DNA of 54,472 bases from Deltaproteobacteria bacterium (GTDB lineage: Bacteria; Desulfobacterota; Syntrophia; Syntrophales; JAAYKM01): the NCBI GenBank assembly GCA_012522415.1, contig JAAYKM010000075.1, forward strand, positions 1-54,472. The letters run 5' to 3'. The translations under genes were made by a program, and so were the position numbers. The notes beneath the pieces are model-generated. The model searched no databases. It had not been told where the DNA came from and worked only from the letters and a program-made list of their open reading frames with translations. The first letter of the stretch is position 1, and every line of letters begins with the position of its first letter. Positions 45,348 through 48,222 of this stretch are shown in pieces.

Positions 45348-46709
45348 TCAGGGCTTCGGGAATCTCTGAATCGTCCGCAAAGCCCGTTCGATTTCCGCCT
45401 CAGGGAGTTCATAAGGCGTCAGCTGTCCCGAGAGGTATGAATCGTAAGAGGACAGGTCAATCAGGCCGTGACCACTCCAATTGAAGAGAATGACCTTTTC
45501 TTTCCCCTCCTCCCTGGCCCGCGCCGCTTCCTGAACAACAGCGGCAATGACATGGTTCGTTTCCGGAGCGGGGAGAAAACCTTCACTCCTTGCCCATTTC
45601 ACTCCGGCATCGAACGTTTCCACCTGGTCGTAGGATCGCGCTTCGATAAGACCTTCCACAAGCAGATGGCTCACGATGGGCGCCATCCCGTGATAACGCA
45701 ACCCCCCCGCATGAATCGGCGCCGGCACAAAATCATGTCCCAGAGTGTGCATGGCCAGTAACGGTGTCGTCTGGGCGATATCCCCGAAGTCGTAAGCAAA
45801 GGGTCCCCGGGTCAAACTTGGACAGGAGGTCGGTTCCGCCGCAACGACGGACACCTTTTTCCCATGGATTTTATCCCGTACGAAGGGAAGGGAAATCCCG
45901 GCGAAATTACTTCCACCGCCGGCACAGCCCAGGACGACATCGGGATACTCGCCTATTTTCGCCATCTGCTTTTCCGCCTCCAGACCGATGATGCTCTGAT
46001 AGACCAGCACGTGGTTCAGGACACTGCCCAGTCCGTATTTCGTGTTCGGATGGGTCACGGCGTCCTCGATCGCCTCGCTGATCGCAATGCCCAGGCTACC
46101 CGGAGAATCGGGATCGTCGGAAAGGATTTTTCGCCCCGTTGCCGTCTGATCACTGGGGCTGGAGAGACACTCGGCCCCCCAGGCATTCATAAGCATACGC
46201 CGGTACGGTTTCTGGTTGTAACTGACCTTGACCATATAGACCCGGCATTGAAGACCGAACATCTGGCAGGCCATACCGAGGGCGCTGCCCCACTGGCCCG
46301 CCCCGGTTTCCGTGGCCATCCGTTTTGTGCCGAAAACCTTGTTGTAATAGGCCATGGGGATGGCCGCGTTTGGCTTGTGGGAACCGGCGGGACTCACCCC
46401 CTCGTCCTTATAATAAATTCTGACGGGCGCATCGAGGCACTTCTCGAAGTTCCTGGCGCGGCGCAGGGGCGAGGGGCGCCACAGGAGATATTTGGCCAGA
46501 ACATCCTCGGGGATATCCAGCCAGCGTTCACGGGAGACTTCCTGTTCGATGATGTTCATGGGGAAAATGGGAGCCAGATCGTCCGGCCCGACGGGTTTAC
46601 CCGTTGCAGGATGCAACGGCGGCCGCAGCGGCGTCGGCAGATCCGCCTGGATATTGTACCATTGCCTTGGAATCTCCTGATCCTCCAGAATCACTTTCAT
46701 CTGTTCCAT
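45348..46709 (-). CDS. trpB: TrpB2-type tryptophan synthase beta subunit
   Basis: The 453-residue length and N-terminal extension (with [20 protein letters not shown]) mark the TrpB2 class of PLP enzymes, not the TrpA-partnered TrpB1. The PLP lysine is Lys112 in AGSHKPNAA, and the phosphate loop is [11 protein letters not shown]. It condenses serine with indole to make tryptophan. No trpA or other trp gene is nearby. Upstream is a candidate attenuator with a Trp-rich leader, so expression is probably tuned to charged tRNA-Trp. AAAGGAG lies before the start. Confidence 0.92.
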
Positions 46710-46784
46710 TGTGCTTCTCCTTTGCTTGATTATAAAAACCGTCCAGGCCGTGTTTCCCTATGGGGAAAAGAACAGGACCCAACA

Positions 46785-46816
46785 AAAAAGGCCATGAGTT
46801 TTCCCATGGCCTTTTT
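46785..46816 (-). terminator. Attenuator-type terminator before trpB2
   Basis: A perfect 12-bp stem, AAAAAGGCCATG with CATGGCCTTTTT (46785-46796 and 46805-46816), is followed on the minus strand by a U-run. A competing pairing exists: TCCCATG (46838-46832) can pair with CATGGGA (46808-46802), which includes part of the terminator's 5' arm and its loop. It lies 75 bp before the trpB2 start. Confidence 0.8.
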
Positions 46817-46871
46817 GATCTGATCGTGAGACATGGGAGAGACTTCCCCCGCCCACGGCTCATAAGTAACA

Positions 46872-46943
46872 TCAACACACCGGCGGGCGGGCATCGTGCG
46901 CCTGCCACCACCATATTCCCTCTATTCCCATTTTCTGTATCAT
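46872..46943 (-). CDS. trpL: Tryptophan-rich leader peptide (trp attenuation)
   Basis: A 23-residue frame reads MIQKMGIEGIWWWQAHDARP and then PVC, with three consecutive TGG codons (46913-46905). GGAG is 9 bases before the ATG and a TTGACA promoter lies 57 bp further up. The frame is followed by a hairpin terminator and then trpB2. Tandem Trp codons in a short frame before a terminator are the hallmark of ribosome-mediated trp attenuation. No direct proof of translation. Confidence 0.65.
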   Translation of the reverse strand: MIQKMGIEGIWWWQAHDARPPVC

Positions 46944-46975
46944 GGCGTCCATCTCCATCCAGCGTGCTGTCGGGT

Positions 46976-47005
46976 ACCCTATCCCGGCAATCATGTTTCT
47001 GTCAA
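46976..47005 (-). promoter_or_regulatory. Promoter for the trp leader
   Basis: On the minus strand TTGACA (47005-47000), an 18-bp spacer and TAGGGT (46981-46976) lie just after the end of the upstream dehydrogenase-like gene. Transcription would start about 25 nt before the leader peptide ATG. Confidence 0.55.
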
Positions 47006-47016
47006 TAGAAATCTTC

Positions 47017-48222
47017 TCAGATTTCCAGATCGGATAAAAACCCCTTTTTCCGTCGATACCACAAATGGGGGAAGAGCTTGTAGAAAAGCCTGGACAGGGG
47101 ACTGATATATTCCTTGGTTCGTTTATCAAACTGACAAGCCTGAATAACGAGATCCTTGATATGGCGTTTCGTCCCCCCCTCATTGAAGATTTTGTAGGCA
47201 CAGTCGAAAAGGGGGCTATACATGTTTTTCTTTTCCAGATATCGATGAACATTCCGGATCGTGTTGGGCCCCTCCGGGGTCCCGTCGATTTTCTGAAGGG
47301 CCTTGGCATGCGTATCCGCCGGGTTTCCGTTGAAGTTTTCGTAAAAGTACTTGCCATAGCGGTAATTTTTGCTGGCCTCAGAAGAAACGGTCACGTACAT
47401 ATCCCCTACTCCGGCCTGACTGTAAAAAGCCTGGAAGCTGCCGCCGAGAAGTCTGACGAGCGCACGGATTTCCACCCCCGATCGGGAGAAGATCGTTCCC
47501 GGCAGGGAATCACCCAGATTGAGGGAATCGGTCACCCCCTTGATATTGGCTACGATATTTTTCAGGGAGCCGCACGCCTCGATCCCGACCACATCGAAGT
47601 TGTAATACGAAGTCAACTCCCGACGGTTGAAGCGTATCAATTCCTCCTTGATCAGCTTCGAAACGCCTCTTTTCCCGGCCACGGTGACGCAGACGGGATT
47701 TCCCATGGCGATATCCATGTCAAAAAAGGGTCCGCCTACACAGACCAGTTCATATTTGTATTTCAGCGCGGAAAGGCTCTGTTTGATGAGCTGCGAAGGG
47801 GTGACCAACTCCATGGTCCCCTCGTTGGAGGAAAGCCCTTTTATCGGCGATATCAGGCAGGTGCCACCCGGTTTGCGCTCGATGATCGGCTTCAGGTAGT
47901 TCAAGAATTCGGTGAGGCGGTTCATCGTCAGGGACAGGAATATAAAATCATTCTCTTCGATAACCCGCTCCAGATCATTTGTCGCATAAACTTTCGGGGA
48001 AAGACGGGGCACCTTGTCGATGCTTCCGAGACGTTTCACCAGATCCTGCGTCAAATGACGAGGATTCAGATGCTCCTTATTGATCGCGAGACAGACATCC
48101 AGGTCATGATAATAAAGGGTGACACGTTTATTGTCCCGGCCGAACTTGTATGCAAAAGAGGTTCCCAAGCGTCCCGGTCCGATGATACCGATTCTGCTCG
48201 TATCCATATTCTTCGCCATCAT
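47017..48222 (-). CDS. NAD-dependent glycerol-3-phosphate dehydrogenase-like protein
   Basis: This ~401-residue Rossmann protein has GPGRLG near the N-terminus, a substrate-region Lys in ISPIKGLSS, GGPFFDMDIA in place of the usual GPxFAxE, and the catalytic Lys-type segment EACGSLKNIVANIKGV. It is about 70 residues longer than GpsA (about 330) because of a C-terminal extension rich in basic and aromatic residues. True GpsA function is likely but not certain. The start (48222, 48219 or 48207) is unresolved; none has a clear Shine-Dalgarno. The trp leader promoter begins where it ends. Confidence 0.7.
   Translation of the reverse strand: MMAKNMDTSRIGIIGPGRLGTSFAYKFGRDNKRVTLYYHDLDVCLAINKEHLNPRHLTQDLVKRLGSIDKVPRLSPKVYATNDLERVIEENDFIFLSLTMNRLTEFLNYLKPIIERKPGGTCLISPIKGLSSNEGTMELVTPSQLIKQSLSALKYKYELVCVGGPFFDMDIAMGNPVCVTVAGKRGVSKLIKEELIRFNRRELTSYYNFDVVGIEACGSLKNIVANIKGVTDSLNLGDSLPGTIFSRSGVEIRALVRLLGGSFQAFYSQAGVGDMYVTVSSEASKNYRYGKYFYENFNGNPADTHAKALQKIDGTPEGPNTIRNVHRYLEKKNMYSPLFDCAYKIFNEGGTKRHIKDLVIQACQFDKRTKEYISPLSRLFYKLFPHLWYRRKKGFLSDLEI

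Follow-up and report, generated by a model that had tools for sequence, protein, structure and literature searches.

Ribosome-mediated attenuation is a textbook mechanism, and the systems closest to the one described here include the trpL attenuator of Escherichia coli and the attenuator that precedes the his operon in Salmonella and E. coli. For the his operon, an extra hairpin located between the first hairpin and the terminator has been argued to lower basal readthrough (PMC1183508). In Corynebacterium diphtheriae, attenuators have been predicted in front of trpB1EDGC and trpB2A (PMC1262725). The role of the stand-alone TrpB2 is debated, with proposals that comprise indole salvage, deamination of serine and a selective function of another, unidentified kind (PMC1854888, PMC2700814). 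In Geobacter, the enzyme has been called indole-scavenging, in a study that does not mention an attenuator (PMC2700814), and the main text of a survey of premature terminators does not name Syntrophus (PMC2965389). A report of an attenuator preceding a stand-alone trpB2 was not found, in a literature search that was thin on subscription papers on attenuation. The attenuator predicted here from sequence would thus act by a known mechanism, yet on a gene for which control of this type is not known.

In the window (the whole stretch of DNA analysed, 54,472 nucleotides), trpB2 is very probably controlled by a ribosome-mediated, tryptophan-specific transcription attenuator composed of six segments as in the his operon. 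According to the folding model, the mechanism would be classical ribosome-mediated attenuation with a his-type layout.

Results

Upstream of trpB2, a glycerol-3-phosphate dehydrogenase-like gene on the same strand ends at 47017, 11 nt before the −35 box of the leader promoter. The region between both genes and trpB2 itself comprise the following features, with the basis of each assignment in brackets.

47000..47005, minus strand: −35 box TTGACA of the leader promoter (sequence)
46976..46981, minus strand: putative −10 box TAGGGT, a weak match with an 18-nt spacer (sequence)
46953..46956, minus strand: Shine-Dalgarno sequence GGAG, 9 nt 5' of the leader ATG (sequence)
46872..46943, minus strand: leader peptide ORF of 23 codons, MIQKMGIEGIWWWQAHDARPPVC and stop (sequence and WWW leaders in relatives)
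46783..46925, minus strand: extent of the entire attenuator in the match to covariance model R1 (score of 103.2 bits with E 4.7e-19 in the genome search, the window being one of the 25 sequences from which R1 was built)
46905..46913, minus strand: control codons, three consecutive Trp codons, TGGTGGTGG (sequence and relatives)
46899..46906, minus strand: segment 1, GGCAGGCG, overlapping the last Trp codon (helix 1:2)
46882..46892, minus strand: segment 2, GCCCGCCCGCC (helix 2:3)
46846..46858, minus strand: segment 3, CCGTGGGCGGGGG (helix 3:4)
46832..46840, minus strand: segment 4, TCTCCCATG, 5' side of the antiterminator (helix 4:5)
46802..46816, minus strand: segment 5, AAAAAGGCCATGGGA, 5' arm of the terminator and 3' side of the antiterminator (sequence and covariation)
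46784..46796, minus strand: segment 6, CATGGCCTTTTTT, 3' arm of the terminator and U-run (helix 5:6)
45348..46709, minus strand: trpB2, the predicted controlled gene, start at 46709 (family profiles and catalytic residues)

The elements that a first-pass annotation had proposed from the letters alone were all recovered. A letter-by-letter check of the minus strand placed the promoter TTGACA-18-TAGGGT at 47005-47000 and 46981-46976, and the Shine-Dalgarno sequence (GGAG, 46956-46953), the 23-codon frame (46943-46872) with its three consecutive TGG codons (46913-46905) and the terminator with U-run before trpB2 (46816-46784) were likewise confirmed. The terminator stem consists of 12 perfect base pairs between AAAAAGGCCATG (46816-46805) and CATGGCCTTTTT (46796-46785), with the U-run ending at 46784. 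In a consensus scan, TAGGGT is the top-scoring −10 site of the region, at a weak score, and the −10 box is poorly conserved among the leaders; the promoter prediction is confined to the −35 box, the −10 box of the window being a weak candidate. An exact TTGACA 70 to 125 nt 5' of the TGG run is found in 46 of 57 distinct leaders, compared to about 0.7 of the 57 expected by chance, as derived from the per-leader rate. A mini-ORF with TGGTGGTGG occurs in 26 of 81 real trpB2 upstream regions (the window plus 80 loci encoding relatives from a scan of a genome collection) versus 2 of 4050 dinucleotide-shuffled upstream regions, and this near absence from shuffled sequence rules out the TGG run as a chance event. 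WWW leaders are present in 56 of 57 distinct covariance-model matches, mostly reading WWWQ or WWWR and often continuing to ...VCP.

Six conserved segments are seen on an alignment of 25 leaders (A1), which can be arranged in a terminating fold with the pairs 1:2, 3:4 and 5:6 and an antiterminating fold with the pairs 2:3 and 4:5. In the former, GGCAG...CUGCC (segments 1 and 2), CAUGGG...CCCAUG (3 and 4) and GCCAUGGG...CCCAUGGC (5 and 6) come together, in the latter CUGCCCA with UGGGCAG (2 with 3) and UCCCAUG with CAUGGGA (4 with 5). Segment 2 of the window is a variant (GCCCGCCCGCC versus GGGCGGGGG), and for the window's segments, ΔG values of −16.6, −22.1 and −21.2 kcal/mol were calculated for helices 1:2, 2:3 and 5:6, respectively. 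Two of the helices had been anticipated in the first-pass annotation and turned out to be real and conserved, namely the pairing of 46838-46832 with 46808-46802, corresponding to helix 4:5, and that of the C-rich stretch 46892-46882 with 46854-46846, corresponding to helix 2:3. Absent from it were helix 1:2, formed by the Trp codons and the C-rich segment, and the anti-antiterminator helix 3:4. In two shorter leaders (L012, 2799-2919, and L036, 2828-2967), helix 3:4 has a U-run of its own behind it, so that leaders of four segments occur in addition to those of six.

In A1, 93.6% of the cells of the terminating fold and 93.5% of the cells of the antiterminating fold are paired, compared to 39 to 56% in slid controls. 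From this alignment, covariance model R1 was built by supplying the terminating fold only, i.e., the antiterminating fold was not provided, and gave 73 matches, 58 of them distinct (alignment A2). In A2, pairing amounts to 95.6% of the cells for the terminating fold, with 9 doubly changed pairs and 67 doubly changed cells, and to 95.5% for the antiterminating fold, with 35 doubly changed cells, whereby these counts treat related sequences as separate and, hence, overstate the number of independent changes; for either fold, none of 500 shuffles reached the figure, and slid controls were paired at 41 to 55%. Individually, the A2 values are 97.8% for helix 1:2, 94.2% for 2:3, 91.7% for 3:4, 97.0% for 4:5 and 97.7% for 5:6, with three, four, two and three doubly changed pairs, in the same manner of counting, in the latter four, respectively. 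In relatives, the TGG run, both folds (about 95% paired over the 58 distinct sequences) and the −35 box are all conserved, a point on which the reading as an attenuator had been made to depend.

The RNA is not covered by Rfam. At gathering score, no family fits the region, the best being FsrA with 19.2 bits versus a gathering score of 80, and the Trp leader model is not among the matches there. A match of Phe_leader was rejected, as it lies on the wrong strand. Rfam leader families were also not found in L020, L014, L035, L113, L114, L118, L131, L188 and others.

The effect of ribosome position was calculated by folding each leader through segment 5 with pairs forbidden in the ribosome-covered part, a footprint of 12 nt from the A-site base being an assumption. 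When the Trp codons occupy the A-site, helices 2:3 and 4:5 reach mean probabilities of 0.75 and 0.76, respectively, and 4:5 outcompetes 3:4 in 21 of 25 leaders; for a ribosome placed at the stop codon, this is the case in 3 of 25. For the window, the probability of 4:5 drops from 1.0 in the stalled state on the Trp codons to 0 when the stop codon has been reached. At the latter position, the helix counted as 3:4 is weak in the window, and segment 4 is presumed to pair in an adjacent register instead, GGGGGAAGUCUCUCCC. When the ribosome is moved through the frame, the antiterminator forms mainly with A-site codons 0 to +4 from the first TGG. For four of the 25 leaders (L005, L010, L024 and L036), the calculation gives no preference for 4:5 on stalling, partly because some of them are four-segment switches. 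When the whole leader including segment 6 is considered at equilibrium, the terminator wins in every ribosome state; hence, as for any attenuator, the model depends on timing during transcription. The tryptophan-attenuator reading of the first-pass annotation is therefore supported by the conserved TGG run, folds and −35 box as well as by ribosome-masked folding that switches as the model requires.

Among the genomes of the window's order, R1 matches 146 of 155 at E ≤ 0.01, weaker matches before other genes included. In the window's genome, a single site is found. Among the matches listed, R1 is located upstream of 97 of the 122 trpB2 genes of the order above cut-off, at a median distance of 103 and a maximum of 366 nt as measured to the start of the TrpB2 domain. 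From the 25 trpB2 genes lacking R1 among these matches, 20 upstream regions were read, and a whole leader is present in none of them. Three of these regions end at a contig edge (G006, G088 and G147), with the one in G147 still having segments 3 to 6. Among the 20 regions read, several clades of the order are apparently without a leader before trpB2; as some trpB2 genes truly lack the leader, attenuator control of trpB2 is not universal in the order. In the upstream regions L180 (G005) and L175 (G136), only a decayed remnant of the terminator is left, apparently from lost attenuators. Outside the order, attenuated trpB2 genes are present in other families of the phylum (L211-L216 and L218-L220), and in L227, also outside, the gene behind the leader is a trpB2 with trpE after it.

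The weaker R1 matches in the order are not noise. Most of those read precede trpE operons and show WWW leaders, usually with two terminators. These trpE(GDCF) leaders (L114 in G072, L117, L118-L122, L128-L130, L184, L185, L193, L195, L196, L198, L201 and L202) are related to, yet distinct from, the trpB2 leaders of the same order. WWWRSSH leaders are found before iorAB, encoding indolepyruvate:ferredoxin oxidoreductase (IOR), in four genomes all belonging to one genus (L131 in G130, L189 in G129, L190 in G134 and L191 in G128), and in L131, L189 and L190 a gene for a periplasmic substrate-binding protein follows. The presence of Trp attenuators before iorAB suggests that IOR may serve tryptophan synthesis from indoleacetate. 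A WWWQGKN leader with terminator precedes the gene for an AMP-binding aryl-CoA ligase (PF00501, PF14535) in L188 (G104; gene start at about 4154, minus strand), and WWW leaders with terminators stand before a gene for a Phenol_MetA_deg family protein (PF13557, confirmed in one case) in L115 (G090) and L186 (G087). Tyr/Phe-rich leaders (YYYFG, FYFWYYYFGAPVC) are located before DAHP synthase, aroB and chorismate mutase-like genes in L194 (G036), L197 (G095) and L199 (G003), the identity of DAHP synthase being confirmed as PF00793 in one of the three genomes. Finally, Phe-rich leaders with tandem terminators, in L183 containing FFVFFSFFSGVC, precede the genes of an ABC transporter of the branched-chain type and of an acyl-CoA ligase in L183 (G005), L187 (G104) and L192 (G103).

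The protein encoded by the window's gene is assigned to TrpB2 by TIGR01415 (633.5 bits, cut-off 518.85) and NF009057 (719.4 bits). Its catalytic residues are intact, with the PLP-binding lysine K112 in SHKPN and the catalytic glutamate E134 in ETGAGQ, and the nearest solved structures (6hul, 4qys and 6hte) are annotated as tryptophan synthase beta chains, two of them as beta chain 2. The gene lies outside any trp operon, and the isolation from trpA claimed in the first-pass annotation holds genome-wide, as neither trpA nor trpC, trpD and trpE was found in the assembly, which is 98.9% complete. The genome contains one more TrpB-like gene, namely an orphan trpB1 that directly follows and overlaps a TrpR-like gene (PF01371; L002, 971-2574, contig C137). 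An attenuator of this trpB1 was ruled out, its neighbour being the trpR-like gene and the single R1 site of the genome lying elsewhere. In the order, trpA and trpC are both missing from 16 of the 97 genomes in which trpB2 is preceded by the attenuator, some of these assemblies being incomplete, and in five of the 16 no other TrpB was found.

In seven Bacillota loci (L050, L056, L059, L066, L070, L076 and L077), an Rfam T-box (RF00230) is located directly before trpB2. TGAATGG is present at the expected specifier place in all six T-boxes read, which thus apparently carry a Trp specifier. The likeness to the attenuators lies in tRNA-dependent control of trpB2, although by another RNA mechanism, as a T-box reads the tRNA directly and does not need a translated leader peptide.

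Discussion

In the proposed mechanism, RNA polymerase would start just 5' of the leader, with a ribosome translating the leader peptide behind it. When charged tRNA-Trp is scarce, the ribosome would stall on the TGG run and cover segment 1, leaving segment 2 to pair with segment 3. The latter then could not hold segment 4, which would pair with segment 5, so that the terminator 5:6 would not be formed and trpB2 would be transcribed. With ample tryptophan, the ribosome would run on and cover segment 2, whereupon segment 3 would hold segment 4 (in the window partly in the neighbouring register), 5:6 would form and transcription would end before trpB2. Without translation, formation of 1:2, 3:4 and 5:6 is expected, resulting in termination as well.

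In genomes without trpA and trpC, TrpB2 can make tryptophan only from indole of outside origin, and the lack of trpA, trpC, trpD and trpE in the window's genome makes indole salvage the probable role there. Most likely, TrpB2 synthesizes tryptophan from scavenged or cross-fed indole. The biosynthetic or indole-salvage role suggested by the first-pass annotation gains from the Bacillota T-boxes and from the 16 genomes that keep an attenuated trpB2 without trpA and trpC. It is nevertheless conceivable, albeit unlikely, that the attenuator is real and TrpB2 is merely co-regulated, serving not tryptophan supply but, for example, a side reaction with serine or phosphoserine. A role as serine deaminase was once proposed and another, unidentified role has been suggested for the lone trpB2_o of Pyrococcus horikoshii, whereas TrpB2_o from Thermotoga maritima and Sulfolobus solfataricus showed poor deaminase activity (PMC1854888). 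High indole affinity and use of O-phospho-L-serine by TrpB2 enzymes, as cited in PMC11917138, also argue for tryptophan formation. In the same direction point the intact catalytic residues, the occurrence of Trp-type control in two phyla, each with an RNA mechanism of its own, and the five genomes in which TrpB2 is the only TrpB found.

Clearly less probable is a leader acting as arrest peptide, in which free tryptophan instead of uncharged tRNA would stall the ribosome via the nascent peptide and the WWWQ...VCP tail would be the arrest motif. TnaC of E. coli, which senses Trp and ends in Pro-stop, provides a precedent, and the tail recurs in many leaders. However, many other leaders stop before VCP (WWWQTK-stop, WWWQT-stop and WWWQAW-stop) and retain the RNA letters beyond the stop, including the CUGCCC segment, showing that the constraint acts on the RNA rather than on the tail of the peptide. 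In addition, three or four TGG in a run are the mark of codon-dependent stalling, and it is on the Trp codons, not on reaching the stop, that the predicted fold switches. A hairpin that solely terminates the glycerol-3-phosphate dehydrogenase-like gene, with a coincidental TGG run, may be suggested by the short distance between this gene and the −35 box on the same strand. This reading is rejected with near certainty, as conservation and covariation of the TGG run and the two folds extend over 58 distinct sequences, a like structure recurs before trpE, iorAB and other genes, and a mini-ORF with TGG codons hardly ever arises in shuffled sequence.

With tRNA-dependent attenuation of trpB2 as the preferred reading, the attenuator family of the order might form an aromatic amino acid regulon comprising salvage besides de novo synthesis, with trpB2, iorAB and the aryl-CoA ligase behind Trp leaders, an extension that we consider somewhat less probable than its opposite. 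Within this regulon, IOR would perhaps run backwards from indoleacetate, and the genes behind the Phe/Tyr leaders, i.e., DAHP synthase and the transporter plus acyl-CoA ligase, would belong to it as well. If true, syntrophs would buffer their aromatic amino acids via uptake of indole and arylacetates from their partners when charged tRNA is low. In any case, like leaders mark trpE, iorAB, aryl-CoA ligase and DAHP synthase and, hence, offer a handle on aromatic amino acid genes of syntrophs that are hard to grow. For TrpB2, the predicted control by charged tRNA-Trp across the order, together with the T-box parallel in another phylum, is strong regulatory evidence for an enzyme supplying tryptophan. 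Moreover, the leaders define an RNA family missing from Rfam.

Compared to known systems, the C. diphtheriae trpB2A operon shares a predicted tryptophan attenuator ahead of a gene named trpB2. There, however, the operon includes trpA, whereas here a stand-alone TrpB2 of the TIGR01415 type without trpA is concerned, and the number in the C. diphtheriae name may only tell two operon copies apart. With the his operon attenuator, the leaders share the run of control codons, a cascade of alternative pairs and the extra hairpin, here helix 3:4, which follows the control-codon hairpin, precedes the terminator and would sequester the antiterminator. No sequence relation was found between the trpB2 leader and the his attenuator, and the control codons are TGG instead of His codons, with orphan trpB2 as the target; a his-type double switch would thus be used for tryptophan. 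The E. coli trpL attenuator resembles the present leaders in the Trp codons of its short leader peptide, its mutually exclusive hairpins and its U-run terminator, but possesses four segments and one switch, whereas most of the leaders described here are built of six segments with two switches that are coupled, and the gene predicted to be controlled is trpB2.
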